Positions 3,166 through 23,031 of a stretch of DNA of 33,656 nt are shown piece by piece (positions within the stretch are counted from its first letter, which is position 1; every line of letters begins with the position of its first letter). The notes under the pieces are model-generated. The model ran no database searches and had not been told where the DNA came from. It saw only the letters and a program-made list of their open reading frames with translations. This stretch comes from Promethearchaeia archaeon (GTDB taxonomy: Archaea > Asgardarchaeota > Lokiarchaeia > Sigyniarchaeales > SOKP01): contig JAHQWI010000109.1 of the NCBI GenBank assembly GCA_029856085.1, positions 1-33,656 of the forward strand, written 5' to 3'. Position numbers and translations under genes: made by a program.

Positions 3166-4137
3166 ATTCTGAATTCATTAGGGGCTCGTTTACAAAAATT
3201 ATTGGAAAATTATATGCAAAGTATCGATGGGGTATTAGCTGTTACAATCTGTGATAGAGAAGGTTTGGTAATAACATCAGAAAGCAAAGAAGGTACGGAA
3301 GATGAGTCTGTAATGGGTGCTATTGCTGCTGCTGTAGATAGTTATATTGACAGAATTAAGCGTGAATTTAGTAGTGAAACAACGTTCTTTAATATTACCA
3401 CGATTAGTAATAAGAAATTCGCCTACTGTTCAAAAGGTTTACAGTCAATATTATTAACGATTTCGGATCTTACAACCTCTGATACTCAATTACGTGTTTA
3501 CTCAGAACATATAGCTAGTAAAGTTGAGTTATTATTGGAAGGAAACGAGAATGTCTCTCTTGAAGTTCCCGCAATTGTTAAAATATTATCAAAAACTAAA
3601 GACGGAAAAATCCCATCAGGCAATTTTTCAACGAAATTAATTTTATTAGGGAATTATAAGGTTGGTAAAACCTCTTTAATAACAAGGTTTGTAAAGAATC
3701 TCTTTCAAGAGAGTTATCATTCTACAATTGGGGTTGAGATTTCACAAAAAGACATGGAACTTGGTGAAAATACAGTCATCAATTTTGCGATATGGGATAT
3801 TGGTGGTCAAATAACACAGATGGCACCATATAGAAGAAGATTCTATGAGGGTGCTCACTCTGCTTTTATAGTATTAGATAGAACTCGCTCAGATAATCTC
3901 AAAAGTGTTGAACTTTGGCATAAAGAAATCATGAAATACGTGGGGAAGGAAATAAATACAATATTAGTGGGAAATAAATCTGATTTATCAGAAAACATCA
4001 TTATAAGTGAGGAGGAAATCAAAAGAGTTGCAGAGGAAAAGGGATTTCATTATATCCTCACTAGCGCAAAAACGGGTGAAAATGTGCATGATGCTTTCTT
4101 ATATATTGCATATCAATTTTTAGAATCTAAATCTTAA
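3166..4137 (+). CDS. Roadblock/LC7 domain fused to Ras/Rab-like small GTPase
   Basis: The N-terminal ~110 residues are a Roadblock/LC7 (profilin-fold) domain with the typical 'DGVLAV..DREGLVI' start. A Ras-superfamily GTPase follows. Counted from the TTG codon at 3202, the P-loop GNYKVGKT is at 150-157, switch I Thr is T175, the WDIGGQ G3 box ends at Gln203, NKSD is at 258-261 and SAK at 288-290. All G-box residues are intact, so GTP binding and hydrolysis are expected. Start choice: TTG 3202 is the first conventional start, but the family-like segment LGARLQKLLENY continues upstream in frame. An AGGTGA ribosome site at 3154-3159 lies 6 nt before an ATT at 3166, so I extend the gene to that ATT. 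Roadblock and small GTPases are hallmark Asgard proteins. The fusion puts a regulator-type platform on the same chain as its switch. The gene is monocistronic, and its neighbours do not inform its role. Confidence 0.9.
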   Translation: MLNSLGARLQKLLENYMQSIDGVLAVTICDREGLVITSESKEGTEDESVMGAIAAAVDSYIDRIKREFSSETTFFNITTISNKKFAYCSKGLQSILLTISDLTTSDTQLRVYSEHIASKVELLLEGNENVSLEVPAIVKILSKTKDGKIPSGNFSTKLILLGNYKVGKTSLITRFVKNLFQESYHSTIGVEISQKDMELGENTVINFAIWDIGGQITQMAPYRRRFYEGAHSAFIVLDRTRSDNLKSVELWHKEIMKYVGKEINTILVGNKSDLSENIIISEEEIKRVAEEKGFHYILTSAKTGENVHDAFLYIAYQFLESKS

Positions 4138-7032: not shown

Positions 7033-7155
7033 ATGAAAGCTAATAATATTATAATCGTACCTGAAACTCATTGGGACCGTGAAACTTTATACAATTGATG
7101 TATAAAGCATGATTGGTATCTCCCATTTCAAGAGTTTCGGGCTAGGCTTATAATT
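7033..7155 (+). pseudogene. Detached 5' end of the GH38 mannosidase gene
   Basis: In the same frame as the mannosidase ORF, an ATG at 7033 begins a typical GH38 N-terminus ending in ETHWDRE (codons to 7083). GH38 enzymes continue directly as W-Y, but here ten extra codons intervene, with a TGA stop at 7096-7098. After them the reading resumes with WYLPFQEFR at 7114. The His and Asp of HWD are zinc ligands of the family. Without this segment the downstream ORF cannot build the normal active site. Either the gene is broken, or the 30 nt are removed or skipped during expression. Confidence 0.75.
7080..7112 (+). repeat. 30-nt insert with hairpin, bounded by TGA direct repeats
   Basis: TGA occurs at 7080-7082 and again at 7110-7112, exactly 30 nt apart. 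Between them CTTTATAC (7085-7092) and GTATAAAG (7100-7107) form a perfect 8-bp stem with a 7-nt loop that overlaps the in-frame TGA stop. Deleting 30 nt anywhere within the TGA repeat restores an open GH38 reading frame as HWDRDWY; deleting 7084-7113 restores the exact family motif HWDREWY. The element is too short for a known insertion sequence. Confidence 0.6.
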
Positions 7156-9852
7156 ATGATGGATAAATTATTAGAGATACTACAAACCGACCCAAATTAT
7201 AAAAGTTTCACATTCGATGGGCAAACTATTGTTCTCGAAGATTATCTAGAAGTGAGACCAGAGAGAGAAGGAGAGATTAAAAAGTACGTAAAAGAAGGAA
7301 GACTTTCTATTGGTCCTATGTATGTTTTACCTGATGAATTTTTAGTTAGTGGTGAATCATTAATTAGGAATCTTATTATAGGACATCAAATTGCGAGAAA
7401 ATTTGGAAGAGTTATGAAAGCGGGATATATCCCTGATCCCTTCGGACATGTAGCACAATTACCTCAAATTATACAAGGTTTTGAAATCCCATCAATATTA
7501 TTTTGGAGGGGCTTTGGAAATGAATTTAAGGACAATAATTTGAATATGGAATTTATTTGGAATGCACCAGGAAATGCAGCGTCACTTATAGGAATTCATT
7601 TAATATATGGGTATGGTTCATTAGAATCGCTAAATGGAAAATTAATTAAAGGACAATATAAACCAGCTCTCAGAAAAATCAAGTTAAGGGTAGAAAATTT
7701 TGAGAAATATATCGCAACTCCTAATGTACTCCTTAATAATGGTTCAGATCATCATGAAGCTCGCCCAGAAATTCCCGAAATAGTAAAGCAATGGAACATT
7801 CTACACCCTGACAAAAAATTAAAACAGGTTGATTTTGAACATTACATCAATAAGGTTTTAGAGTCAAATCCAAGATTAAAAGAATTTCAAGGAGAATTAA
7901 GAGGTGGAAGATATGCACATTTATTATCAGGAGTATTTTCCACACGAATGTGGATAAAACAAAGAAATACCGCAATAGAATACCTATATGAAAAATATTC
8001 AGAACCATTATCAACAATTTCATGGATTTTAGATAAACATAATGAATTTGTTTACCCAAAGGATTATATATTAGCGGGATTAAAGTGGCTTCAGAAATGT
8101 GCTCCACATGACTCAATTTGCGGATGTAGTGTCGATCAAGTTCACGATGAGATGAAAACTAGATTTGATTGGGCAGAACAAATAGGAAACGAAGTTTTCA
8201 AGAATTCATTTCTTTATTTATCCGATCTTATTAACATTGATAACAAATATAATGGTCAAAATACTTTATTAGTATATAATCCGCTTCCTTGGCAACGTAA
8301 AGATATTGTTGAATTTAATACAATTTCGCGGAAAACTAGTGGTGAAAAATTTCCATATAATCTCAAATTAATTGACTTTGAAGGAAAAGAAATTGAAGCT
8401 CAAAATCATGATGTTGAAGAGGAACCTAGATTTACACGAAAGTTAGGTGTTAGTCATAAATTTTCATTTTTAGCGGAAGTTCCTGCATGTGGGTATAAAG
8501 TCTATTATGTTCTTCCTGTTGATTCAGGTCATACTTCCCCTATTGAGAGTGAAATCTTTAAGATAACAAGAGATTTTTTAGAAAACAAATTTTATAGAAT
8601 TGATATAAAACCAGATGGTTTTATCACTGTTATTGATAAGGTTTCAGGAGTTACTTATGAAAAAATTTGTGAATTCGAGGATGTAGGAGACTGGGGAGAT
8701 GAGTACGATTTTTCTGGTCCCTTAGAAAACCAGACCAATTTAACCTATACCACAGAAGATGTTGCTGTGTTTGAGAGATCTGCGTATATAGATGGACCAA
8801 CTCAAAAAACTTATAAACTTAGATTAAATTTAAAGCTTCCTCACTCACTTACAGAAGATCGTTATAATAGGGAAGAGTGGCTTGTTGATAATAAAATAAC
8901 TATATATATCTCATTATATAAAGAGATTAAACGAATTCACTTTAAGATTGAACTTGAAAATAAAAGCAAAGACCATAGAATCCGTGTCTTATTTCCTACT
9001 AAAATAAAGGCTGACAGAGTTTATGCTGATGGTCATTTTTATGTTGTTCCAAGAATGGTCGAATTACCTAAAGCAGATGATTGGGTTCAAAAGCCTTTAC
9101 CTACAAATCACCAAAAGGACTTTGTGTCTGTTAGCGATAATTCAAGAACATTTGCGGTTATAAATAAAGGATTACCAGAATATGAAGCTGTCATTAAAGA
9201 AAATAACACAATAACTTTTGCTATTACTCTCCTGCGATGTATTGAATGGTTGTCTCGTGATGATTTTATGACACGTATGTCTCATGCAGGTCCAGGTTTT
9301 AACACCCCGGGTGCACAATGCCTTGGTAAACATAGCTTTGAATTATCGATTACTACTGAATCAAAACCAAACTGGTTAGATTCAGAAATACATCTAAGAG
9401 GTAAAGAATTTAATAATCCACTTAAACCTCTCTTTCCAGTTATGGTTCATGGTCCCTTAAGAGTTGCAAATAAAGTAATTTTAAGACCATCTGGAATCAT
9501 TTCTTACTTTAATAATATTAAAACGAAGGAATTAGATTCGTTTTTACCTCCTGTTTTAAGTTTTCTTTCAATTGATAATAAAAGTGTAGTTTTAAGTGCA
9601 TTAAAAAAGTCAGAGAAAGGGGATTACTTAATTATTAGAGTATATAATATATCCTCATCTTCTCAAAAGGCAACATTAACCTTTTTCAATAAGATTTCAA
9701 TGAATGACGTTAAACTCGTGAATTTTTTAGAAGAGGCACCTGAACATGAAATTAAGGCAAAAATTAATTCTTTTAATAATAACTTACTTGAAATTGTATT
9801 AGAACCACACGTAATTGCCACATTTAATATTGAACTTGAATTAAAAAAGTGA
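7156..9852 (+). CDS. Glycoside hydrolase family 38 alpha-mannosidase, N-terminus missing
   Basis: This is a retaining, zinc-dependent alpha-mannosidase of GH38. The nucleophile is the Asp in IPDPFGHVAQLPQ (Asp94 of this ORF), within the most conserved family block. Further matches are LLNNGSDH near 197, the helix around GGRYAHLLSGVFSTR, and HDSICGCSVDQVHDEM in the middle domain. The C-terminal half (about 390-898) is the beta-sandwich region with GDWGDEYDF and PGAQCLGKHSF. At 898 residues, plus about 31 lost from the front, it matches bacterial/archaeal MngB-like enzymes. The ATG at 7156 is the first after the interrupting insert and lies inside the first conserved helix, downstream of the HWD zinc motif. 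As annotated, the product should therefore be inactive. No secretion signal is seen. The body of the gene has no other stops or frameshifts, so decay, if real, is recent. Confidence 0.85.
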   Translation: MMDKLLEILQTDPNYKSFTFDGQTIVLEDYLEVRPEREGEIKKYVKEGRLSIGPMYVLPDEFLVSGESLIRNLIIGHQIARKFGRVMKAGYIPDPFGHVAQLPQIIQGFEIPSILFWRGFGNEFKDNNLNMEFIWNAPGNAASLIGIHLIYGYGSLESLNGKLIKGQYKPALRKIKLRVENFEKYIATPNVLLNNGSDHHEARPEIPEIVKQWNILHPDKKLKQVDFEHYINKVLESNPRLKEFQGELRGGRYAHLLSGVFSTRMWIKQRNTAIEYLYEKYSEPLSTISWILDKHNEFVYPKDYILAGLKWLQKCAPHDSICGCSVDQVHDEMKTRFDWAEQIGNEVFKNSFLYLSDLINIDNKYNGQNTLLVYNPLPWQRKDIVEFNTISRKTSGEKFPYNLKLIDFEGKEIEAQNHDVEEEPRFTRKLGVSHKFSFLAEVPACGYKVYYVLPVDSGHTSPIESEIFKITRDFLENKFYRIDIKPDGFITVIDKVSGVTYEKICEFEDVGDWGDEYDFSGPLENQTNLTYTTEDVAVFERSAYIDGPTQKTYKLRLNLKLPHSLTEDRYNREEWLVDNKITIYISLYKEIKRIHFKIELENKSKDHRIRVLFPTKIKADRVYADGHFYVVPRMVELPKADDWVQKPLPTNHQKDFVSVSDNSRTFAVINKGLPEYEAVIKENNTITFAITLLRCIEWLSRDDFMTRMSHAGPGFNTPGAQCLGKHSFELSITTESKPNWLDSEIHLRGKEFNNPLKPLFPVMVHGPLRVANKVILRPSGIISYFNNIKTKELDSFLPPVLSFLSIDNKSVVLSALKKSEKGDYLIIRVYNISSSSQKATLTFFNKISMNDVKLVNFLEEAPEHEIKAKINSFNNNLLEIVLEPHVIATFNIELELKK

Positions 9853-11781: not shown

Positions 11782-12849
11782 ATGAAACTTAATGAGTATT
11801 TAAAAGAATTTAAAGACAAGATCAACGATGCAATTAAATCTATTTATGACATGAAATTAAAAAATATAAAAAATAGATTTTTAGAAGATTATTATTCAGA
11901 ACTAAAAGATTATTTCCTAGCTGGGGGAAAAAGAATTCGTCCATTACTATGTATCGCTACTTACAATGCGTTCAATGAAAGAAGGGATGAAAGAATTGTA
12001 TTTCCTAGTGTGGGTACTGAATTTCTCCATAATGCGTCGTTAATACATGATGATATTATTGATAAGGATGATTTTAGAAGGGGAAAACCTGCATTCCACT
12101 TTAGATTTCGAAATTACCATGAAAAGTATGAATTAAAAAGGATGATAGCAACAGATTTCGGTAATTCTATAGGAATTATTGGAGGAGATTCAGCTTTTTT
12201 TTTAGGTTTAGAAGCTTACTTTTTTAACGATTTTAATATGGAATTGAACTTAAATGCAATAAAATATTATAAGCAAGCGTTTATAGAAATTGCTAATGGA
12301 GTTTTAATTGAAACTGATATGGTAAACCAAACAAATCTCACCCTTTCTGATTATATCGAAATGATTTCACTAAAAACCGGAGCCTTGATTGAGAAATCGA
12401 TTTTAATAGGAGCAAATTATGCAAGAGCAGCTGATGAGTGTATTAATGATCTTTCCATCTATGGTATAAATCTTGGTATCGTTTTTCAAATAACTGATGA
12501 TATTTTAGGTACATTTGGTGATGAAAAAGTAACTGGAAAACCAACAGATGGCGATATCCGAGAAAATAAATTAACTGCTTTAAAATTAATGGCCTTAGGC
12601 AATTTAGAAAACTCAAATAAAATGCGGCTTATTGAATTACTTGAAAATCCTAGTATGACTAATAATGATGTTCAGGAAGTTAAGGATTTGTTTATTAAAG
12701 CAGATGTAGTTAATTCATGCAAAGAATTAGCAAACGTATACTTTCAAAAAGCAAAATCATCTTTGGATAAATTGAAACCAACTATCAATCAATCTGAAGT
12801 AGAATTTTTTGAAAGTTTATTAAATTTTGTAGTGGAGAGAAATTTCTAA
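11782..12849 (+). CDS. Trans-polyprenyl diphosphate synthase (GGPP synthase family)
   Basis: This head-to-tail trans-prenyltransferase condenses IPP onto allylic diphosphates. Visible motifs are GGKRIRPLL at 48-56, the first Asp-rich motif DDIID at 90-94, Lys/Thr of the KTG segment near 198-200, and the second Asp-rich region DDILG at 239-243 followed by GDE and GKPTDGDIREN. The length (355) is normal. The fifth residue before the first Asp motif, which limits chain length in short-chain enzymes and is aromatic in many archaeal GGPP synthases, is Ala85 here, as in long-chain bacterial synthases. The product may therefore be GGPP for membrane lipids or a longer chain for a quinone. It sits at the edge of the mevalonate island and would consume the IPP and DMAPP made by the neighbouring genes. 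Confidence 0.88.
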   Translation: MKLNEYLKEFKDKINDAIKSIYDMKLKNIKNRFLEDYYSELKDYFLAGGKRIRPLLCIATYNAFNERRDERIVFPSVGTEFLHNASLIHDDIIDKDDFRRGKPAFHFRFRNYHEKYELKRMIATDFGNSIGIIGGDSAFFLGLEAYFFNDFNMELNLNAIKYYKQAFIEIANGVLIETDMVNQTNLTLSDYIEMISLKTGALIEKSILIGANYARAADECINDLSIYGINLGIVFQITDDILGTFGDEKVTGKPTDGDIRENKLTALKLMALGNLENSNKMRLIELLENPSMTNNDVQEVKDLFIKADVVNSCKELANVYFQKAKSSLDKLKPTINQSEVEFFESLLNFVVERNF

Positions 12850-12947
12850 AGAGAAACTATCCCCATATGATATTTTAATTTTTTCATTAATTTAATATGG
12901 AAAAAGATAAGAACTAAAAATCATAGAAGAATTATTAAGTTCAATAC

Positions 12948-12954
12948 TATAAAT
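12948..12954 (+). promoter_or_regulatory. TATA-like element before the UbiX gene
   Basis: TATAAAT sits about 37 bp upstream of the ATG at 12988. A start site ~26 bp downstream would leave a leader of roughly 10-15 nt. The support is pattern and spacing only, in an AT-rich background. Confidence 0.35.
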
Positions 12955-12987
12955 TTTCTTTTATTAAAACTATTGAGATAGAGTTAG

Positions 12988-13536
12988 ATGTTAGTAGCGA
13001 TTACCGGAGCCACGGGAGTCGATTTGGCAGTTAAATTTCTAAAAACACTGAGAGAAAAAAAGATTGAAATTGAACTTATCATCTCTAAAATTGCCGAAAA
13101 AATAATAGATATTGAAACGGATAATAAAATTTCTGATATTCGTAAAATAGCAGATAAAAACTATGATGTAGATAATTTATTATCTCCACCAGCAAGTGGT
13201 TCCTACAAGATAGAGAGTATGGTTATAATTCCTTGTTCAATGAAAACTTTATCAGCAATAGCAAATGGATATGCAAATAATTTAATTTCAAGGGCAGCAG
13301 ATGTAATGATAAAAGAAAAAAGGAAATTAATACTAGTCGTAAGAGAAACTCCTTTCAGTGCTATCCATCTTGAGAATATGCTTAAATTAGCAAGATTAGG
13401 AGTAATTATTTGCCCCCCAATCCCTTCATACTACATAAAACCTAAAAGCGTTGAAGAACTCATTGAATACACCATAGGAAGGATATTAGACCAAATTGGG
13501 ATTGAAACTAATATAAAAAGATGGGGGACAATTTAA
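12988..13536 (+). CDS. ubiX: UbiX-like flavin prenyltransferase
   Basis: The protein makes prenylated FMN by joining a dimethylallyl group to reduced FMN, the cofactor of UbiD-family decarboxylases. Family features are the N-terminal nucleotide loop ITGATG at 5-10 (usually GASG), ASGSY at 69-73, the block PCSMKTLSAIANG at 82-94, NNLISRAADV at 98-106 and RETP at 119-122. The length of 182 is standard. Its partner, the UbiD-type anhydromevalonate phosphate decarboxylase, lies in the same island at 18496-19806 on the opposite strand. That makes this copy very probably dedicated to the mevalonate route. The prenyl donor it needs (dimethylallyl phosphate or diphosphate) is itself a product of that pathway, so the island encodes a self-supporting loop. 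The cofactor role is family knowledge; the pairing is inference from context. Confidence 0.9.
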   Translation: MLVAITGATGVDLAVKFLKTLREKKIEIELIISKIAEKIIDIETDNKISDIRKIADKNYDVDNLLSPPASGSYKIESMVIIPCSMKTLSAIANGYANNLISRAADVMIKEKRKLILVVRETPFSAIHLENMLKLARLGVIICPPIPSYYIKPKSVEELIEYTIGRILDQIGIETNIKRWGTI

Positions 13537-13598
13537 GAAAGAAAAAGTTGATTATTCAGTTATTAAGATTTAAATGAATAAAGTAAGGGCAATTTTAA

Positions 13599-13994
13599 TT
13601 GAAAATGCTCCAAGATATTTGGATTCTGCATAAATCTGGAATAGTGATGTTTCATAGAGTATTCAATGAATCTGTATCCCCTCAAGCATTTGGCGCAATG
13701 ATGAGTGCGTTAAGTACTTTTGCCGAACAATTAGCTGATGGTGGATTATCCAATTTTGAATTAAATAATAAAAGATTTACCATAATTAAGAAACAAGATC
13801 TTAAATTTATTGCTAATTCGTTAAAACGATTTAATCAGAAAAAAATTAATCGTGAATTAGAAAAAGTTTCAAAAAAATTCTTGAAACTCTACTCTGAAAA
13901 AATAGAGGATTATAAAGGTCAAATTGGAGCGTTTACTCAGTTTGAAGAGATTATTGAGGATTCTTTGGAAGACAATCCACAACAATCCAGCTAA
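13599..13994 (+). CDS. Small longin-like (profilin-fold) protein, Asgard type
   Basis: The first ~70 residues read like a small longin/Roadblock-type sensor domain: a beta strand 'DIWILHKSGIVMF', an amphipathic helix 'FGAMMSALSTFAEQLADGG', then strands 'FELNNKRFTIIKK' and 'LKFIANS'. The remaining half is a charged helix pair and an acidic tail. I do not recognise a named family, and the fold assignment is by pattern only. The start is either TTG 13599 or ATG 13605; they differ by two residues. The stop is one base from the IPP isomerase stop on the other strand, so the two genes meet tail to tail. Longin and Roadblock domains act with small GTPases in eukaryotes, and this window has a Roadblock-GTPase fusion, but nothing here shows they interact. 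Why it sits in an isoprenoid cluster is unclear. Confidence 0.6.
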   Translation: MKMLQDIWILHKSGIVMFHRVFNESVSPQAFGAMMSALSTFAEQLADGGLSNFELNNKRFTIIKKQDLKFIANSLKRFNQKKINRELEKVSKKFLKLYSEKIEDYKGQIGAFTQFEEIIEDSLEDNPQQSS

Positions 13995-13995
13995 A

Positions 13996-15114
13996 TTATT
14001 GGTTTAACCATCTATACAATTCACCAAGAATAACATACTTATCTCTTTTACCTTTTAATTTAGCTATTTCATCTATATTCATTAACCATAGACATGAACG
14101 TAATTCTTTTTTTAAGGTCCTTATTTCTTTAATAGTGTGAGAAATAGAATTATCTTTTCTATCTTTCCATGCGGATTGGAGAAAGTTATAAGCAAAACCT
14201 CCTAAATCAGCACCTAATACAATAGATTTTGCAATATCAAGTCCAGTTCTTAAACCTCCCGTGGCAATTATTAGTTTTTGAGACACATTTCTAACATAAA
14301 TTATACTAATCGGTGTGGGGATCCCCCATTCCTTAAATACTTCAGCTGGATCTCGAGTATATCTTTGATTATTAAGATTTTTGCGTTTTGATTCAATTGC
14401 TGCGAAACTGGTTCCTCCAGCACCTCCAATATCAAACCCATCAAAACCAAGTTTATCAAGAATTAAAGCTAATTCCTGGTTAAATCCGGTTCCAACTTCT
14501 TTTGCAATTATCGGAATACTGTTTTTTTCCCGTAATTTTTGAAAGTTTTTACGGAAAAGTTTATATGAAAGATCTCCTTTATCTTGAACTAATTCATGTA
14601 AAACATTTAAATGAATTGCCATAACATCAGCATTTATCATCTCTATGCATTTGTTAAAATCCTCTAACTCAAAATTAAGGCTACTAACCTGCCCGATGCC
14701 AATATTTCCGATTATAGGAATAGTAGGGGCAACATCACGGGTAATTTTAAATGAATCTAATAATGTAGGATCTTCAAGTCCTGCACGCTGGCTTCCTACA
14801 CTCATTATAATATTTTCTTCTTCTGCAGCTTTAGCCAAAATTTCATTTATTTCTTTTGAGACAGGATGACCACCAGTAATCGCTGAGATACAAATGGGTG
14901 CTGAAATTTTTTTATCATAAAACTTCACTGAAAGATCAACTTCTTCAATATCGACATCTGGAATTGGATGGTGAATCAATTTTATATCACTAAAATAATT
15001 CCTAGAATGTTGTACGTCATGCTCTAAGGTTATTTTGAGATGTTCTATTTTTCTGTCCATTATCTCTTTAGAGTCATTCTCCTTTGGCATATTTTTCCTC
15101 TCCATTTGAGTCAT
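13996..15114 (-). CDS. fni: Type 2 isopentenyl-diphosphate delta-isomerase (FMN-dependent)
   Basis: The enzyme interconverts IPP and DMAPP using reduced FMN. Numbering from the ATG at 15114, the FMN/phosphate motifs are SAITGGH (77-83), SVGSQR (105-110), KEVGTGF (205-211), GAGGTSF (231-237) and GGLRTGLD (286-293). His168, Asn170 and Glu174 match the family's IPP/Mg site. However, the Gln normally just before that Glu (Gln160 in the Sulfolobus shibatae enzyme, as I recall it) is His173 here, which is unusual. Start: the ATG at 15090 (ninth codon) has a GGAGAGG ribosome site 6 nt upstream and is the better start; the ATG at 15114 has none. It is the last gene of the minus-strand operon, 19 bp after isopentenyl phosphate kinase (43 bp to the preferred start). 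Confidence 0.92.
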   Translation of the reverse strand: MTQMERKNMPKENDSKEIMDRKIEHLKITLEHDVQHSRNYFSDIKLIHHPIPDVDIEEVDLSVKFYDKKISAPICISAITGGHPVSKEINEILAKAAEEENIIMSVGSQRAGLEDPTLLDSFKITRDVAPTIPIIGNIGIGQVSSLNFELEDFNKCIEMINADVMAIHLNVLHELVQDKGDLSYKLFRKNFQKLREKNSIPIIAKEVGTGFNQELALILDKLGFDGFDIGGAGGTSFAAIESKRKNLNNQRYTRDPAEVFKEWGIPTPISIIYVRNVSQKLIIATGGLRTGLDIAKSIVLGADLGGFAYNFLQSAWKDRKDNSISHTIKEIRTLKKELRSCLWLMNIDEIAKLKGKRDKYVILGELYRWLNQ

Positions 15115-15133
15115 TTCACATAAAAAATTGTTT

Positions 15134-15955
15134 TTAATTATTTATTATATTTGTACAAGTTACTTTTTCATTTTTTAAAGAATTATATACATAATTTTCT
15201 TTCAATCCATTTATCAATTGTACAGGAACATTGAATTTACAAATCTGTTTTATAAAATCGATTTTACCTTCAATCCCACCTGTCACATCTATTTTTTTCC
15301 CCAAGTCCGCTAAGTCCAAGTCATCTAATTCACTTGAAAATATTTTAGAGGCCAATTTTATATTTTCATCCTTAGAATCTCCATCATTAATAAAAATTCC
15401 ATCGGTTTCAGTTGCAAAAATAACTTTTGAGACACAATATTTTTGTAAGTTCTCACATAACTCAGAAATGATGTGATCTCCTGAAATTATCGAAAATGAC
15501 CCTTGTTTATCAAAAATAATATCTCCATATAAAATGGGTAAGATATTAAGATCTAAAGTGGTTTCAATGATGTCAATAGATTTGGTAATGATATTTTCTG
15601 CGTTTTTTATAAAAATACTGGAGGGTTGGATTGATAAAACTGGATAATTTCGTTCTAAAAATAGGTTTACTAAATAAGAATTAAATTTAATCATAGCTTG
15701 ATGGGTTTCAGTTAATCCAAAAATTTGATTTGGTATAGATTTATCTAGCCCCTTCGAAATATTGTATTTTTTTGCTAGAGGATGCCCAAACGAGCCACCT
15801 CCATGAATCAATATTACTTTTTCGTTAGCATTAATAATTTGTTGAATTGTACTTTTAACAACTTCCTCTCTGATAAAAAAAGGTTGATTTTTATCAGTTA
15901 GTAAACTTCCACCTAGCTTTAATAGTAAGATTTCTTTCTTTCTTTTCAATTTCAA
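15134..15955 (-). CDS. ipk: Isopentenyl phosphate kinase
   Basis: This amino-acid-kinase-fold enzyme phosphorylates isopentenyl phosphate to IPP, the final kinase step of the archaeal route. The Lys-Gly-Gly phosphate loop LLKLGGSLLT spans 11-20. The signature HGGGSFGHPLA at 51-61 carries His58, equivalent to the substrate-binding His that separates IPK from other kinases of the fold. ILYGDI and SGDH are further family blocks. The length is 273, slightly above the usual ~260. It starts with TTG (15955, or a second TTG two codons on at 15949) just after a GAGAGAG stretch that can serve as ribosome site. It follows mevalonate kinase by 7 bp and precedes the isomerase, in the order of the reactions. 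With the dehydratase and decarboxylase upstream, it confirms the anhydromevalonate phosphate variant of the pathway. Confidence 0.92.
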   Translation of the reverse strand: MKLKRKKEILLLKLGGSLLTDKNQPFFIREEVVKSTIQQIINANEKVILIHGGGSFGHPLAKKYNISKGLDKSIPNQIFGLTETHQAMIKFNSYLVNLFLERNYPVLSIQPSSIFIKNAENIITKSIDIIETTLDLNILPILYGDIIFDKQGSFSIISGDHIISELCENLQKYCVSKVIFATETDGIFINDGDSKDENIKLASKIFSSELDDLDLADLGKKIDVTGGIEGKIDFIKQICKFNVPVQLINGLKENYVYNSLKNEKVTCTNIINN

Positions 15956-15962
15956 CTCTCTC

Positions 15963-16898
15963 TCATCCGATCATAGTTTTCCAGGCATTGTACCCTTCGC
16001 TTTCGATAGCATTAGCAATTTTTACTTGTATTTCTTCATTTTCCACCAAAGCAATAACCAAACCCCCTCGACCAGTCCCTGTCATTTTAGCACCAACAGC
16101 TCCATTCTGTAATGCTATTTCAACCAATTTATCATTCACTTCTCCTGAAACCGTAATTTCTTGGAGAAGTTTGTGGTTTTGATTCATTAGATCTCCTATA
16201 GTAATAATATCCCCATTAATTAATGCATTTTTAGCATCTTCTGCTAATTTTTTATATTCAGCAAAAATTTTTTCGAATTTAACGGGGTACTTTTCCTTTA
16301 AACGTCGAACATCAGCAACAACTTCTGTCGTTGATGCCGTAATTCCTGAATTTGCTATTATTAAAGACATCTTTTTTCGAGCTTGTAAAAGAACCATAGT
16401 ATTTTTACCTCCACTCATGTTTTTTTTAAACCAAATTAACCCGCCATAAGTGGAAGCTGTATTATCAATTCCAGAAGGGGTTCCGTGGTAAGATTTTTCT
16501 CCTTCATATGCCGCTTTATTTATTTTTTCATCGTCCAAATCAAGATTAAAAGTATCATTAAGGGCACGAGCTAAAGATGTGCATTGAGCAGCAGAAGCTC
16601 CAACACCACTTGCAGCAATTAGATTACCGCTAAATGTTATCTCAAGTTTTTGATTTTTGGTATCTATTTTTAAATAATCAATAACGTTTTGTACAGATTG
16701 CATCGCCTCATTATGTTTTTGCTTTTTATAACCAGGTGTTGCTGGTCTCTGATCATCAACCGTCCATCCATTTCCCTCAATAGCTTTAACATCCGCTGTT
16801 GTATAGGACCCTAACGCCGATGCTATTGCAGGTAGTCCATAAACTACAAAATGTTCACCGAACAAAATTGTCTTTCCGTATCCCTTTCCTGAACCCAT
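15963..16898 (-). CDS. mvk: Mevalonate kinase (GHMP family)
   Basis: The enzyme phosphorylates mevalonate to mevalonate 5-phosphate. N-terminal KTILFGEHFVVYGLPAIA (9-26) is the mevalonate kinase signature. The GHMP phosphate loop is ASGVGASAA at 96-104, PSGIDNTAS at 141-149 includes the catalytic Asp145, and GTGRGG near 276-281 is GHMP motif 3. The length of 311 is normal for archaea. No phosphomevalonate kinase or diphosphomevalonate decarboxylase gene follows, as expected if its product goes to the dehydratase encoded immediately upstream. The ATG at 16898 abuts the dehydratase small-subunit stop (TAA then ATG). A GGAGGT ribosome site lies inside the end of that gene, 7 nt before the start. 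Translational coupling is likely. Confidence 0.93.
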   Translation of the reverse strand: MGSGKGYGKTILFGEHFVVYGLPAIASALGSYTTADVKAIEGNGWTVDDQRPATPGYKKQKHNEAMQSVQNVIDYLKIDTKNQKLEITFSGNLIAASGVGASAAQCTSLARALNDTFNLDLDDEKINKAAYEGEKSYHGTPSGIDNTASTYGGLIWFKKNMSGGKNTMVLLQARKKMSLIIANSGITASTTEVVADVRRLKEKYPVKFEKIFAEYKKLAEDAKNALINGDIITIGDLMNQNHKLLQEITVSGEVNDKLVEIALQNGAVGAKMTGTGRGGLVIALVENEEIQVKIANAIESEGYNAWKTMIG

Positions 16899-17288
16899 TT
16901 ATTTTACCTCCACAGTTCCTTCTGAGCCATTGACGACGACAATTTGTCCTGTGTTTATGTTATTAATATCAATTCTATCAACACATGGGATTTCACTAAT
17001 AATACATCCTACTGCTATGATAGTATCAATCTGTTTAATAACAATTGCAGCGGGAGCTGTGTTATTTTTTTTCATTCTATACATTGTGTATGATCCTACT
17101 GTGGATCCTTTACCAGATGGGAAAACTAATACTTTTCCTGAAATTGATTTTCCCTCCAATTCGTGGCCTACCTCAACCACTTTACCTGTATCGGGATCAA
17201 CACCCCCATAAAATGAAATTCCATCTTTAGTAACAATCGCTTCTGCTTCAGCAATTCCTTTAAATATTTTTCTTCCCGATAACTTCAT
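16899..17288 (-). CDS. Phosphomevalonate dehydratase small subunit (aconitase X swivel domain)
   Basis: This is the small subunit of the iron-sulfur enzyme that converts mevalonate 5-phosphate to trans-anhydromevalonate 5-phosphate. It has the AcnX_S swivel fold, with PSGKGSTVGS at 57-66 carrying the family's active-site Ser (Ser62). The length is 129 residues. I place the start at the ATG at 17288: it overlaps the large-subunit stop (ATGA) and has a GGAGG ribosome site 7 nt upstream. An ATG seven codons earlier exists but lacks a ribosome site. The overlap suggests coupled, roughly stoichiometric synthesis of the two subunits. The homologous pair was characterised in Aeropyrum pernix. The assignment rests on the motif, the overlap and the surrounding mevalonate genes. 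Confidence 0.92.
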   Translation of the reverse strand: MKLSGRKIFKGIAEAEAIVTKDGISFYGGVDPDTGKVVEVGHELEGKSISGKVLVFPSGKGSTVGSYTMYRMKKNNTAPAAIVIKQIDTIIAVGCIISEIPCVDRIDINNINTGQIVVVNGSEGTVEVK

Positions 17289-18478
17289 CCTGTCGCCTCC
17301 TCGATGCATTCTTCAATTGACCCAATTTTTACTTTAAACTTATTCTTTGAACGCCCATAATAGCACGCTTTTGCTGAATCTACCATAATTCCCTTAAAAC
17401 GACCTTTAATAGGGGCTACAACACAGCAAGTATCTGCTGCAAATTTTGCTCCTGCATCTTCAATTATTTTAGAATAACCTGCCTCATCAGCAATTCTTTT
17501 TGTAGGTCGAGCAGTTGTGATCCAAAATTCTTTTTTTACTTTCTTTCCCTTCAATAAATTCGCAATCTTTCCTATTTCGTGAATTGAAGCATGGGGACAC
17601 CCTATACTAACAAAATCAATATTAATATCATCATCAATAAGTTCCAATCGCGTTTTATCTAGATTATCTTGATTAATTTCAAAAATAATATCACTTGGTT
17701 TCGGATATTTATTATACTCAGGAGTTATCCCTTCCATATGGAATAACGCTGTTCCACCATAAGTAGCAACAGAAGCACAAAATGATTTGAGTTCTTCAAC
17801 AGTTGCTCTGGAAATTCCAGTTATATAAGGGGTTTTCTTTCCTAATTCAACTAACTTATCTCCAATTATCTTCCCTAACACTCCAAATTCGTCTGTACCT
17901 TTCACTTGGGCATTAACTTTAACTAAAACTTCCCCGTGACGATTTTCATCCAAATGATACCCATATTTAGGGGTTTTCCCTATAATGGCTGACGCTAAAG
18001 CACTTGGGCCCCCCTCTCGATTAGTTCGAGCACCAATAACCGAATTAGCATAACAAACAGCACTACTTTCAGCCCAAGCAAGGTGTTGACCAAAATGAGG
18101 AGTATTTCCAATTAAGTAAGGTGTACAAGAACAGGTTGTTATAATTCCCATTTTAGCAAAAGCATCTATCGCACGATTCTGATTTTTAGCAAATTCTTTA
18201 TCTATCCCTAATGCCTGCCAATTTTCGCGATCCATTCCTGCGGGGTTTAATGTTGTTAACACTCTTACTTTACCATCTTCTGCCATTTCGCTTAAAAATT
18301 CCAATCCCGCTTCACCAAGATTAGCATAGGAAACTCCCGCTATTTGAACCCCAACAACATCTACCATGCATTCAGCATCAAAGATTTCACCTAATGTGGC
18401 TAAAATCTCCATAGATTTTTTAGCGGATTTTCCATACTTGCCATCCAGCATGTCTTGTTCTTCTGATGTCAACTTCAT
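17285..18478 (-). CDS. Phosphomevalonate dehydratase large subunit (aconitase X)
   Basis: This catalytic subunit of the aconitase X-type dehydratase works with the small subunit encoded just downstream. Length is 397. Candidate [4Fe-4S] ligands are Cys116 or Cys118 (TTCSCTP), Cys294 (SIGCPHAS) and Cys351 or Cys352 (DTCCVVAP), three separated cysteine positions as in the family. Other conserved stretches are the N-terminal MLDGKYG, NREGGPSALASAIIGKTP at 153-170 and the C-terminal KACYYGRSKNK. A TAGGAG ribosome site lies 9 nt before the ATG. The gene follows the UbiD-type decarboxylase by 17 bp, so adjacent genes encode consecutive steps: this dehydration, then decarboxylation to isopentenyl phosphate. 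Aconitase X also occurs as cis-3-hydroxyproline dehydratase, but the neighbourhood excludes that here. Confidence 0.93.
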   Translation of the reverse strand: MKLTSEEQDMLDGKYGKSAKKSMEILATLGEIFDAECMVDVVGVQIAGVSYANLGEAGLEFLSEMAEDGKVRVLTTLNPAGMDRENWQALGIDKEFAKNQNRAIDAFAKMGIITTCSCTPYLIGNTPHFGQHLAWAESSAVCYANSVIGARTNREGGPSALASAIIGKTPKYGYHLDENRHGEVLVKVNAQVKGTDEFGVLGKIIGDKLVELGKKTPYITGISRATVEELKSFCASVATYGGTALFHMEGITPEYNKYPKPSDIIFEINQDNLDKTRLELIDDDINIDFVSIGCPHASIHEIGKIANLLKGKKVKKEFWITTARPTKRIADEAGYSKIIEDAGAKFAADTCCVVAPIKGRFKGIMVDSAKACYYGRSKNKFKVKIGSIEECIEEATG

Positions 18479-18495
18479 TTCAATATACTCCTATA

Positions 18496-19806
18496 TTATA
18501 AATATTTGTTCACATCTACTTTAGGGAACTCTGCTATATCAAAACTTTTCCCTTTCACAACCAGTGGTTTGGTTAAATCAAACCCAATCTTCGTTGTCAT
18601 CTTGGTCCCTGGCTCAGCGCTTGGATCCAGGCTGCTTCCTGGTTCTTTATTTTTTACAATCATTCTGGTGTCTCCCTGAAACCGGGTGGCCATCGCCCAC
18701 TCTACAGATAAAGGATCATAAATATTAATGTCTTTATCAACAATATAAGCATGTTTACAGCTTGTATGCCCTGCAAAGGTTCCTTCTATTGCCTTTCTTC
18801 CATCTTCTTCCGATTTTTTATCAATTTGGACTATTGCATGCAACCAAGAAGACCCACCGGGACTAATATTTACATCCAAACACTTAACTCCTACTCCATT
18901 TACTTTATTGAAAATAGTGGGTTCCCTAGGCATACCCATCAATATTTTATGTTCAAGCGCCCCTGGTAATAAGGCTTGCCAAATCGCATCTTTTCTATGA
19001 GTAATTCTTTTAACTTCAAAAATAGGTTCCTCTCTGATTACATCATATGTCTCAGTCAGATCAACAAAAGGACCTTCAGCATGTCTTTCTTCAAAATATA
19101 CCCTTCCCTCTAAAACAAATTCCGCTTCTGCTGGTATTATAAGATCTACTGAGTTTGCTTTTACAACTTTAATTGGTTCTAGTGCATTAGCAATGTGTAA
19201 TTCATCAACACCAATATCAACAGAAGTAGCTCCAGCAATTAGAATGTTGGGAGTATTACCTATACAAAAAGCTACTTCTACTTCGCCATTTTTTTCTAAA
19301 AATTTATAGAAATGACGTCCTTTAACTATTCGAGTAGCAAATTTGTCTTTAGAATACTGCATTGCTCGATGAAAATCTAAGTTTTGCCCATAATCAGGAT
19401 CTCTTGTTACAACAACTGCAGAACTAATATAATTTCCACCATCTTTTTCGCAATGAAATAGAATGGGTATTTTATCTAAATCTATGTGTGATTCGATTAC
19501 TTCTTGACAAGGAGCATTAGACACAATTTCTGGTTCAGAACGTTCAGATATTGCTTTTGAAAGCATTGGTATGAGATCTGCGGGAGTCACACCGAAATAT
19601 GAAGCAATAACATTCTTTGTACAGAACACGTTACCTACAACGCGAAAATCTGATTCTTTAATATTATTAAATATTACAGGGGTCGGTTCAATCTCCTTTA
19701 AAATTCCAGAAATATCTAGTTTTTTAGAAACTTCTACATCTACCTTTCGGAGTATTCCTTCTTTATCAATTTGGTTTATATATTCTCTAAATCCCATAAA
19801 ACTCAT
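18496..19806 (-). CDS. UbiD-family trans-anhydromevalonate 5-phosphate decarboxylase
   Basis: This prenylated-FMN-dependent decarboxylase is predicted to convert trans-anhydromevalonate 5-phosphate to isopentenyl phosphate. UbiD-family signs are NLDFHRAMQ at 142-150 (metal/prFMN-binding Asn and His-Arg), ANALEPIKV near 207-215 with a conserved Glu210, and EGPFVDLTETY at 244-254, corresponding to the EGPFGEF block. The length of 436 fits the archaeal group, shorter than E. coli UbiD (~497). It is placed directly before the phosphomevalonate dehydratase genes with a 17-bp gap. The cofactor-making UbiX is in the same island. Substrate specificity is inferred from this context, since UbiD enzymes act on many acids. 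Two in-frame ATGs (19806 and 19797) are possible starts. The 81-bp gap upstream contains a strong inverted repeat. Confidence 0.9.
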   Translation of the reverse strand: MSFMGFREYINQIDKEGILRKVDVEVSKKLDISGILKEIEPTPVIFNNIKESDFRVVGNVFCTKNVIASYFGVTPADLIPMLSKAISERSEPEIVSNAPCQEVIESHIDLDKIPILFHCEKDGGNYISSAVVVTRDPDYGQNLDFHRAMQYSKDKFATRIVKGRHFYKFLEKNGEVEVAFCIGNTPNILIAGATSVDIGVDELHIANALEPIKVVKANSVDLIIPAEAEFVLEGRVYFEERHAEGPFVDLTETYDVIREEPIFEVKRITHRKDAIWQALLPGALEHKILMGMPREPTIFNKVNGVGVKCLDVNISPGGSSWLHAIVQIDKKSEEDGRKAIEGTFAGHTSCKHAYIVDKDINIYDPLSVEWAMATRFQGDTRMIVKNKEPGSSLDPSAEPGTKMTTKIGFDLTKPLVVKGKSFDIAEFPKVDVNKYL

Positions 19807-19841
19807 CTTCTATACATGTTTATCTTGATGATATGAATAAT

Positions 19842-19880
19842 AAAAGTGGTTTTTCTTAGAGGAGTTACAGAACCACTTTT
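19842..19880 (-). promoter_or_regulatory. 10-bp inverted repeat between HMG-CoA reductase and decarboxylase genes
   Basis: AAAAGTGGTT (19842-19851) and AACCACTTTT (19871-19880) are perfect complements around a 19-nt spacer, in an 81-bp gap inside the otherwise tightly packed mevalonate cluster. In transcript sense the repeat begins 7 nt after the reductase stop. It could be a terminator or processing hairpin separating an upper-pathway unit from the lower-pathway operon, or a dyad operator for the decarboxylase promoter. Confidence 0.45.
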
Positions 19881-19887
19881 TATAAAA

Positions 19888-21168
19888 CTAAAGGTTTTCA
19901 CCATCATTTATTTTTTGTAAAATTTCTTTTGCGTAATCAACTCTTATTTTTTTCTCTTCTATCATTTTTTTAGCAACTTTTTCTATTAATTCATCAGGTA
20001 CACCCGCGATCTTTGCTATGTTACGAGAATGAAGTGCCATATGACCTTTTTGAATGCCTTCCGAGGCTAAAGCCCTCAGTGCCGCAACATTTTGAGCCAA
20101 ACCAAGAGCGGCACCTACCTGTGACAGTTCACTTGCACTTTTTACATTTAAGATCTTCAAAGCTAATCGTGCCATAGGATGTATTTTCGTCATTCCCCCA
20201 ATAATTCCTAGAGCAAGAGGGACTTCAATTTCTCCAACCAGATTTCCCTTTGAATCTAATTCGAATTTAGTCAATGGAGAATATTTTCCACTTAAAGAGG
20301 CAAATGCGTGAGCACCTGATTCTATTGCTCGTGTGTCATTTCCAGTTGCTAATGTTAAGGCAACAATACCATTCATTATTCCTTTATTATGGGTGGTCGC
20401 ACGATATGGATCGGCTAAAGCAAATTCATACGCATTCAATATTCCTTCAACAACTTGGGTACCACCTAATAAATCTTTATCAAAAGTTGCTTTACTTTTA
20501 GCAATTCGATGAGTAGCTAGATTCGATAAAATACGTAGATAAATTTTTCCTTCAGTGACTTCTTCAATATAAGGGCTTACTGCTTCTGCCATTGTGTTAA
20601 CTATGTTGGCGCCCATGGCATCCAGAACATTAACCAACAAATGTATTATCAGCATCTTACCCCTTCTTGTATCTAATTCTCGAATTTCCAGATCAAGTGC
20701 ACCACCACCTAATTCGTTCAATAAAGGATCTTGCTCATTGGCAATTTTTAAAATTTGATCTTTATTATCTAAAATTTGTTTTCTTACATATTCAATATCT
20801 TGTATTTGTGTTATTTGAATCTGTGAAATCATAACTGATTTTACATTTTCTGAAAAAAAACCTCCATGTTTTCTAGCAAATTTAGCTGCATTTGAAGCTG
20901 CTGCAACAACGGAAGGCTCTTCAATAACCATAGGTATTATATAATCTTTATTATTAATTTTAAAATTGAAAGCTAAACCAAATGGTAGTTGATAGCTCCC
21001 AATGACATTCTCAATTAAGGTATCAATCTGTTTAGGAACAAAGTATCCTATATTTTGTAACAACTTAATCTCTTCTTCATTTAAGTTAATAATTTTCGAT
21101 ATTTTTTGCTGACGCTCTTCAAATGATAATTTGTAAAAACCAGAGATATCTGAACGCAATTCTTTCAT
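19888..21168 (-). CDS. hmgA: HMG-CoA reductase, class II
   Basis: The enzyme reduces HMG-CoA to mevalonate. The sequence is of the bacterial-style class II group: it opens with SGFYKLSFEERQ, has PMVIEEPSVVAAASNAA with the catalytic Glu83, and ends with a helical region ~426 residues in. The other catalytic residues fit the Pseudomonas mevalonii enzyme with a constant offset: Lys262 (HNKG), Asp278 (GNDTR) and His376 (KGHM). All are intact. Class II enzymes often prefer NADH, but the cofactor cannot be settled from the sequence. It has no membrane segments, unlike eukaryotic class I. It lies between HMG-CoA synthase (180-bp gap) and the lower-pathway operon (81-bp gap with a hairpin), so it may be its own transcription unit. 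Most archaea use class I; class II occurs in Archaeoglobus and Thermoplasmatales, where transfer from bacteria has been proposed. Confidence 0.93.
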   Translation of the reverse strand: MKELRSDISGFYKLSFEERQQKISKIINLNEEEIKLLQNIGYFVPKQIDTLIENVIGSYQLPFGLAFNFKINNKDYIIPMVIEEPSVVAAASNAAKFARKHGGFFSENVKSVMISQIQITQIQDIEYVRKQILDNKDQILKIANEQDPLLNELGGGALDLEIRELDTRRGKMLIIHLLVNVLDAMGANIVNTMAEAVSPYIEEVTEGKIYLRILSNLATHRIAKSKATFDKDLLGGTQVVEGILNAYEFALADPYRATTHNKGIMNGIVALTLATGNDTRAIESGAHAFASLSGKYSPLTKFELDSKGNLVGEIEVPLALGIIGGMTKIHPMARLALKILNVKSASELSQVGAALGLAQNVAALRALASEGIQKGHMALHSRNIAKIAGVPDELIEKVAKKMIEEKKIRVDYAKEILQKINDGENL

Positions 21169-21348
21169 ATTATAATTCTCACATCTAAAAATTAATAAAC
21201 TTTTCTATATTCTCTCTTATCTTTATTATTTATGGTGAAAAATGAAGATCTTAGATATGATTATTTCACTTTGTAAATAAATTTAAAATATTGCTATAAT
21301 CTTGATGTAAAATAACAAGGAGGGCTATAGAATTTAACTTATTAATCA

Positions 21349-23031
21349 TCATTTAAAAGGAACAGGAAGATCTTGGACTAGAAAATCCCTATTTATTAAA
21401 TATTTCTCGGGGATAGGAACATATATAGGACTCCAATTCAACAATCCTTTCGCATTGATGTTTTGCTCGTTTTCATTTTCAACTCTCCTTATTTCATATT
21501 CTAAAGATATACCTTTTGTTACATTGTCCGATACTCGTACTAAGTCTTTATGGAGATATGTTAGATCATTAGCGTCTGAATGAACGATTGGGTCGCTATC
21601 TAGCTTTGCAAAAAGAGGGAAAAATCGTTTAAGGTATCCTGAATGTCCCTTAGGACAATGATCCAATCCCTTAATATTAGGAATTATACACCCTTCATCA
21701 CAGAAAGAAAGCGTAAAGCCCCTATTGTTATTTTGTTCATGTTCAACAATATGACCCAATATTACTTGTGGTTTAATATTTCCATTCTTAATTAATTCGT
21801 ATTCCTTAATGCTTTTCTTCCTCTTTAAATTGATAAAATCGTTTATGTATGGTCCAGTTTGGATAACTTCTTTAAATCTATCTTGGATTTTTAGAAGACC
21901 AGATATACACGTAGCACCTGAGCCATAAGACCCAAAATAAATTATATCATTAACCTTTGCATAATTTTCGATTAAATATGCGATCTGTGCCCAGATTGCA
22001 GCGTTATACATGTTTCCAAAATACATTGGAACTTTTAATTGAGGAAGAACCCTTTCTTTCACATTTGAAATTAACCATTGTGAAACTTGTTTCAATCTTT
22101 TTGGAGTAAAACCGTATTCCTTTAGTTTCAAGTAGATAAATTCAGGTAGAACAATTACGTCGTGTAAAAAACGATCGAGTTTCTTAATTATTGAAGATTT
22201 AATCCCACTGTTTTCGATTTCGATTTTAGGTAATTCAGTAAGATGTTTCATCCAGCGTTTCAATATTATATGCTGCATTGATTTCAACGGGAGCTTGGAG
22301 TATGGCGCATGAAACGTGTAATAATCAGCATTGAAATCCCCAATATTCCTAATCAGGTCATCATAAGCTTGCAGTTGAAAGTTCAAATAAGTATCTTGAG
22401 AATAGCCCCCAAAAGCTCTAGCATTTTTATCATTAGGTGGTCTAAAGAAATCATTTACGTTACCCGAAACTTTGCCGAATTTTTTACTAAAAGTAGCAAT
22501 TCTCGGATTTCGTGAAATTACGATACCAATAGCTCCCGAGCCTTGCGTTGGTTCGCCAGGAGAACCTAAATGATATGAAGAAATATCCGCACTTATTATA
22601 AGAGCTTTATTTATAATCTCTTTTTCAATTAAAGCAATAGCATTAACAATTGCTAATGTACCCCCCGCACACGCATTATAAATGTCTTGAGTCATCGAAT
22701 TTGGAGAGATTTCTAACATTTCAGCAAATATATTCGAGATACTCTTAGCTGCATATACCTCTGTTTCCGTTCCAACAAATAGACCATCAATACTCTTAGG
22801 AGAGATACGTCCTCTTAGTAAAGCATTGTATCCTGCTTTTAATCCAAGTGAAATAATATCTTCATCTACGTCAGCGACTCGCATTTCTTTAGATAAAAGG
22901 CCTTTAGCATATTTTGCAGGATCTACCTTCCTTTCAATTGCAAGTTCCTCTAATTTTACAAAATGCAGAGGAGCATGAAAACCGATTGAGTCAATTCCAA
23001 TGTTAGTAAATAAATGATCGTCAGAAAGCAT
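21349..23031 (-). CDS. HMG-CoA synthase, long form with Cys-rich C-terminal extension
   Basis: This thiolase-fold enzyme condenses acetyl-CoA with acetoacetyl-CoA. The triad is Glu89 (GTETEVYAA), nucleophile Cys121 (YNACAGGT) and His241 (TFHAPYSK). PTQGSGAIGIVI, DFFRPPND and GNMYNAAI are phrases of the bacterial/eukaryotic HMG-CoA synthase group rather than the archaeal one, which has FACKAGT around the Cys. The helical insert at about 250-335 also recalls the eukaryotic enzyme. At 560 residues it is much longer than archaeal (~350) or bacterial (~390) forms. The extra C-terminus (about 405-560) contains Cys444, Cys448, Cys459 and His463, spaced like a small zinc site. Archaeal HMG-CoA synthase normally pairs with a DUF35 zinc-ribbon protein and thiolase, neither of which is in the window. 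The ATG at 23031 is the first start. It is divergent from the cis-prenyltransferase across a 405-bp gap. Confidence 0.88.
   Translation of the reverse strand: MLSDDHLFTNIGIDSIGFHAPLHFVKLEELAIERKVDPAKYAKGLLSKEMRVADVDEDIISLGLKAGYNALLRGRISPKSIDGLFVGTETEVYAAKSISNIFAEMLEISPNSMTQDIYNACAGGTLAIVNAIALIEKEIINKALIISADISSYHLGSPGEPTQGSGAIGIVISRNPRIATFSKKFGKVSGNVNDFFRPPNDKNARAFGGYSQDTYLNFQLQAYDDLIRNIGDFNADYYTFHAPYSKLPLKSMQHIILKRWMKHLTELPKIEIENSGIKSSIIKKLDRFLHDVIVLPEFIYLKLKEYGFTPKRLKQVSQWLISNVKERVLPQLKVPMYFGNMYNAAIWAQIAYLIENYAKVNDIIYFGSYGSGATCISGLLKIQDRFKEVIQTGPYINDFINLKRKKSIKEYELIKNGNIKPQVILGHIVEHEQNNNRGFTLSFCDEGCIIPNIKGLDHCPKGHSGYLKRFFPLFAKLDSDPIVHSDANDLTYLHKDLVRVSDNVTKGISLEYEIRRVENENEQNINAKGLLNWSPIYVPIPEKYLINRDFLVQDLPVPFK

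Follow-up and report, generated by a model that had tools for sequence, protein, structure and literature searches.

A predicted 30-nt bulge-helix-bulge mini-intron splitting the HWDREWY motif of a Lokiarchaeal GH38 gene

How is a GH38 gene to be read when its HWDREWY motif is interrupted by ten codons that include a stop? The question arises in a stretch of 33,656 nucleotides (nt) from a Lokiarchaeal genome (assembly GCA_029856085.1, contig JAHQWI010000109.1, forward strand; hereafter the window), which belongs to a metagenome-assembled genome (MAG) of 214 contigs and 80% completeness (G000). From the ATG at 7033, one reading frame runs through MKANNIIIVPETHWDRE, then through TLYN*CIKHD, and then into WYLPFQEFR. 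The first of these segments comprises 17 codons (exon 1, 7033-7083), shares its start with intronless relatives and holds the HWD motif, which we take to be the zinc-binding site of GH38 enzymes, contributing the zinc ligands. When 30-nt excisions starting at 7055 to 7109 were tried, HWDREWY was regained only by removing 7084-7113 (ACTTTATACAATTGATGTATAAAGCATGAT), bearing out an earlier note on this DNA that had described the motif as split by a 30-nt in-frame insert with a TGA. The same note had called the rest of the gene undamaged, and the downstream segment (exon 2, 7114-9852; 912 codons plus stop, starting with WYLPFQEFR) is indeed free of stops up to 9852. The N-terminal, middle and C-terminal GH38 domains recognized by Pfam all lie 3' of 7156 (within 7156-9849), the spliced frame encodes 929 amino acids, and the intact GH38 protein of the sister genome G014 (L004) matches solved GH38 enzymes. 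From its excision register, its geometry and covariation and its recurrence in relatives, we consider it highly probable that the insert is a 30-nt archaeal-type bulge-helix-bulge (BHB) intron in a protein-coding mRNA. Among the three readings left by the earlier note, the evidence supports the tiny mRNA intron, specifically in the BHB form, which the note did not name, and not the gene-killing insertion or the translational bypass.

The predicted BHB can be traced letter by letter on the forward strand. CGUG in exon 1 (7078-7081) pairs with CAUG in the intron (7108-7111) to give the central helix, which is flanked by the 5' bulge AAA (7082-7084) and the 3' bulge AUU (7112-7114). Inside it, CTTTATACA (7085-7093) and TGTATAAAG (7099-7107) form a perfect 9-bp inner stem closed by the 5-nt loop ATTGA (7094-7098), which contains the in-frame TGA (7096-7098). 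The hairpin that had been noted at the stop is present, with these dimensions in place of the 8-bp stem and 7-nt loop first given, and the TGA copies noted on its flanks also exist (7080-7082 and 7110-7112), as parts of the conserved helix and bulges. In Yokobori 2009 (PMC2738675), cuts in the BHB of the archaeal cbf5 intron are predicted between bulge residues 2 and 3. Applied to the insert, this rule places the cuts at 7083/7084 (AA^A) and 7113/7114 (AU^U), which is exactly the motif-restoring excision. Pairing in the BHB register was matched by none of 20000 letter shuffles; this, together with the inserts that seven further genomes have at this position, is more than chance would give. In the proposed mechanism, a 4-bp helix of the exon 1 CGUG and the intron CAUG would separate two bulges of 3 nt each, the tRNA splicing endonuclease would cut each bulge between nucleotides 2 and 3, and the ligase RtcB would join the exons, restoring HWDREWY in the full-length enzyme. 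Rfam returned no group I or group II intron match at E-values up to 1 between 6800 and 7400, its sole match there being RAGATH-25 (E 0.16, under the gathering score and outside the insert). The search for further copies of the element in G000, which the earlier note had proposed, found the window copy as the only perfect instance of the stem pattern; allowing three mismatches added three places, fewer than in the reversed control. As a separate observation, G000 also contains, at C132:16070-16894 (L002), a more distant match to the GH38 N-terminus (47 bits), which has no stops.

Across the 83 genomes of the window's class, a scan for HWDRE not followed by T gave 23 matches in 19 genomes. In eight of these, one being the window's, a GH38 gene is interrupted by 30 nt at the position seen in the window; the remaining 15 do not read as this gene. 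The comparison with Lokiarchaeal GH38 genes that had been proposed as a check accordingly adds seven bearers. All eight inserts carry an in-frame stop (TGA, TAA or TAG), and exon 2 of the seven other bearers is open over 908-915 codons. A narrower pattern, which requires CACG and is blind to the two copies with CATG, recovered six of the eight bearers among 227 genomes of the phylum and none outside the class. A scan of GTDB contigs returned eight contigs, seven of them Lokiarchaeal (MAGs CSMAG_2412, LW40_45, E44_bin85, 33X4, bin22, CSMAG_2237 and HM4_B22) and one from a Methanoplasma MAG; the seven records are the seven other bearers already found, not independent copies, and the Methanoplasma match (L081), which reads open through the site, was taken as chance. 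A sequencing, assembly or binning artefact could be suspected from the use of MAG data in 214 contigs and from a coverage of only 1.3 in the bearer HM4_B22, but the seven other MAGs are separate assemblies with different isolate names and coverages up to 100 where given, and the variants of the insert covary, leaving this explanation a probability next to nil. In the GH38 gene of G025, a TAG was flagged at first; that gene reads as an open frame of 910 amino acids.

The eight introns share the central helix CGUG/CAYG, paired in every one of them, and the bulges AAA and AWU. In their alignment 95.2% of 104 cells are paired; the score for covariation is 0.277, where shuffles average 0.129 and none of 500 came as high. 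Five of the nine inner pairs have changed on both sides, a number reached by 3 of 500 shuffles; variation in the central helix is one-sided only, with the G.U of the window copy replaced by G-C in the six copies with CACG. On the exon side, GACCGTGAA is found in all eight bearers and at none of 60 intronless HWDREWY sites (43 genomes), CGTGA occurring at five of the 60. Although these counts come from related sequences and are not independent, the exon strand of the helix is constrained as well.

Selection on exon 2 bears on whether the insert has turned the gene into a pseudogene, that is, whether a palindromic micro-insertion stops it, the protein being lost or begun at the ATG at 7156. The ratio of nonsynonymous to synonymous substitution (dN/dS) is 0.127 between the bearers G070 and G080 and 0.138 between G070 and G071. 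Bearer-sister pairs other than that of the window lie at 0.126-0.162, and two pairs lacking the intron at 0.135 and 0.102; the GH38 gene is maintained while carrying the intron. Three things speak for a pseudogene: the in-frame TGA, the 898-codon frame opened by the ATG at 7156, and the dN/dS between G000 and the intronless G014, its sister, which at 0.216 exceeds that of every other pair among the nine tested. Translation begun at 7156 would nevertheless lose the HWD motif, the stem shows compensatory changes, and the fresh gene-killing insertion that the earlier note had entertained is contradicted by the persistence of the insert in eight genomes with open exons and by the low ratios of the bearer pairs. 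We therefore regard a pseudogene as very unlikely.

A tree of 46 GH38 proteins was computed on their exon 2 portion (48 were collected, the short G002 sequence and a second G071 copy being left out). Intron presence on this tree is patchy, requiring at least seven changes for the eight bearers: six of them stand beside intronless relatives (G071 by a join of weak support), and G070 groups with G080. Among 18 same-genus relatives of G000, the site is readable in 15, all of which are intronless, and three have no such site. G000 is identical to G070, a member of another genus, over 65 nt, namely the 30-nt intron with the 24 nt of exon 1 before it and the 11 nt of exon 2 after it. Between +91 and +690 of exon 2 (600 sites), by contrast, it has 170 differences from G070 and 17 from G014. 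Because the intron and its flanks match the copy of another genus and exon 2 matches the intronless sister, the window intron was probably acquired recently and horizontally, its short flanks being co-converted; gene conversion of a short tract would have brought it into G000 from another genus. Vertical inheritance followed by loss in the intronless relatives, with no transfer, would suit the apparent homology of the GH38 introns, which share 19-30 of 30 identical positions, and would parallel the cbf5 introns, for which PMC2738675 describes a common origin with losses and absence from some lineages. It remains unlikely in view of the 15 readable same-genus relatives, all without the intron, and of the 65 nt common to G000 and G070 despite the divergence of their exon 2 sequences. 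Local divergence from the sister is raised (p<0.05) in three of the eight bearers (G000, G060 and G063), has a p of 0.078 in G030 and is not raised in G071, G070, G080 or G072; since it is also raised in 2 of 11 intronless pairs, it was not used as a sign of conversion.

RtcB, the ligase invoked above, was found in all eight bearers, in 75 of the 83 class genomes and in at least 207 of the 227 genomes of the phylum, and its own gene is split in the bearer G072. Among the matches listed, six genomes have similar 29-30-nt inserts in RtcB, which fall on two sites. At site A, G072 (L205) carries a 29-nt insert that shifts the frame within GGVGY|DINCGV and can form a UUGG/CCAA helix, bulges AUA and AAA, and an inner stem of 9 bp; cuts placed by the BHB rule bring the motif back, and in G026 (L253), of another genus, this site likewise holds 29 inserted nt. 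At site B, 30-nt inserts with an in-frame stop interrupt LPD|AHQGYG in G161, G162 and G163 (L256-L258), which form one genus and are kin of the window's genome at phylum level only, and in G047 (L254), whose RtcB resembles those of G161-G163 more than those of G030 and G052 and may have been misbinned or transferred. Both interrupted motifs presumably belong to the active site of the ligase. For each of the 14 GH38 and RtcB inserts, the observed in-register pairing was reached by 0-19 of 20000 letter shuffles. Two further observations concern RtcB: the gene of G118 (L259) has a lone in-frame TAA without an insert, which is either a sequencing error or a point stop and was left uncounted, and, among the matches listed, G093, G114, G115, G116 and G117 show two RtcB matches with reduced best E-values, at about 1e-139 to 1e-147 in G093, G114, G115 and G117, like the split genes of G072 and G026.

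The cutting enzyme is widespread too: PF01974 endonucleases were matched in 82 of the 83 class genomes (at least two matches in 68), including two matches in five of the eight bearers and one each in G000, G030 and G072. Four of these proteins were inspected by eye: the three higher-scoring ones keep a Tyr, a His and a Lys at positions that we take to be the catalytic residues, and the lower-scoring one is without the His. Judged from these sequences, a heteromeric endonuclease is suggested, the type that is linked to unconventional cbf5 BHBs in PMC2738675. Six tRNA genes of G000 were then held against the BHB grammar. tRNA-Lys(UUU) (L167, C195) has a candidate 30-nt intron with an inner stem of 10 bp and three of four central helix pairs, and tRNA-Arg(GCG) (L169, C65) one of 26 nt with four of four; both sit away from the anticodon loop, in a layout like that of the mRNA introns. 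The other four genes gave one poor candidate and three none. The joined tRNAs pass in ARAGORN, but so do a worse tRNA-Lys candidate and the unspliced tRNA-Arg, and tRNA introns of the same layout are support for the BHB reading, not proof of it.

These data also bear on translational bypass, in which the ribosome would hop from GAA (7081-7083) to GAT (7111-7113) over the stop-bearing hairpin, a scheme suggested by the hairpin around the stop and by take-off and landing in one frame. The earlier note had already remarked that the two codons do not fully match, and the mismatch GAA/GAT recurs in seven of the eight genes, only G030 having GAA/GAA. Furthermore, the RtcB site A insert of 29 nt shifts the frame, a bypass has no need of a conserved exon-intron helix or of bulges at the exact BHB cut sites, and two tRNA introns of G000 share the layout. 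Bypass is in our view highly improbable.

Several observations nevertheless weigh against a BHB intron and have to be set beside the evidence above. Only a weak outer exon-exon helix of the full hBHBh' motif is possible; unconstrained folds of a 57-nt stretch contain the central helix in five of the eight introns, G000, G070 and G030 being those without it; and for the window copy the unconstrained fold is at -11.4 kcal/mol and the BHB at -9.7 kcal/mol. The seven further pair types in the alignment were reached by 74 of 500 shuffles and are not above chance. RtcB site B fits less well, with a central helix of 4/4 pairs in G161 and G162 and 3/4 in G047 and G163, and an inner stem of 9/9 in G047 and G163, 6/9 in G162 and 4/9 in G161, the low values counting against it. 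As to the endonuclease, G000 (an 80%-complete MAG) has only the higher-scoring PF01974 type, and G030 (an incomplete MAG) only the lower-scoring type by score. Finally, ab initio scans turned up further candidates in numbers not clearly above those of the controls. With a loose BHB grammar the count was about equal to the control, another scan gave 226 vs 182 on one strand of 380 kb, and a strict grammar gave 13 coding-consistent matches, seven of them known introns, vs 12, 8, 6 and 5 with wrong bulge sizes. A codon-scored scan of 1.18 Mb found 11 matches (seven known) vs 2-10 in six controls and missed the RtcB introns; a scan of long open reading frames over 1.17 Mb found 11 (two known) vs 3-9 in four controls and missed the GH38 introns. 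Because some known introns were missed, the scans do not show absence. The structure is a relaxed BHB, and cbf5 BHBs are likewise mostly unconventional (PMC2738675).

Taken together, 29-30-nt BHB mRNA mini-introns in Asgard archaea are the best reading of these sequences. More tentatively, and with slightly less than even confidence, we propose that these mini-introns are horizontally mobile, that they insert into codons of conserved motifs in protein genes, and that short-tract conversion spreads them with no endonuclease encoded in the intron, the RtcB case being a possible feedback loop on splicing capacity. The mRNA of an interrupted RtcB gene would need its own product, so that, if the reading is true, the ligase must join its own message, and self-dependent splicing becomes testable. 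Two genes other than cbf5 appear dependent on tRNA-type mRNA splicing in several lineages of the Asgard archaea, which are relatives of the ancestor of eukaryotes. Gene callers would annotate such intron-bearing genes as broken, and with copies that are patchy in distribution and apparently transferred, intron gain in protein genes can be followed. A survey of the literature on Asgard or Lokiarchaeal and archaeal mRNA introns, which mostly did not cover subscription papers and preprints, met, among the papers listed, no title or abstract opening announcing Asgard mRNA introns.

Elsewhere in the window, positions 11782-23031 hold an isoprenoid cluster with HMG-CoA synthase and reductase, AcnX, UbiD, a UbiX-like flavoprotein, a GHMP kinase, an AA-kinase family protein, an FMN enzyme and a polyprenyl synthetase, which we take to resemble the archaeal mevalonate route through AcnX. 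At 3202-4137, a Ras-type small GTPase follows a weak Roadblock/LC7-like N-terminus, the Roadblock match being under the cut-off.

How do these inserts compare with known systems? Gene 60 of phage T4 is a translational bypass element, and it resembles the GH38 insert in placing a stop and a hairpin between take-off and landing; the inserts differ from it in the unmatched codons of seven of eight genes, the frame-shifting insert of RtcB and the BHB. Non-canonical archaeal tRNA introns share the layout, as seen in the candidate 30-nt tRNA-Lys(UUU) and 26-nt tRNA-Arg(GCG) introns of G000, but here the host is an mRNA, whose reading frame needs exact restoration. An intron in the cbf5 pre-mRNA of Crenarchaeota was reportedly described by Watanabe in 2002. 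By 2020, according to PMC7714728, the one in cbf5 mRNA was the only further archaeal BHB intron reported. The same paper describes a BHB in the 5' untranslated region of the HVO_1309 mRNA of Haloferax, which likewise makes an mRNA a substrate of the splicing endonuclease, in an untranslated region there and as a coding intron here. The inserts also resemble the cbf5 intron (PMC2738675): predicted cuts between bulge residues 2 and 3, a mostly unconventional BHB and absence from some lineages are common to both, whereas the hosts here are GH38 and RtcB, in another phylum, the introns are only 29-30 nt long, and signs of inter-genus transfer take the place of the common origin with losses seen for cbf5.
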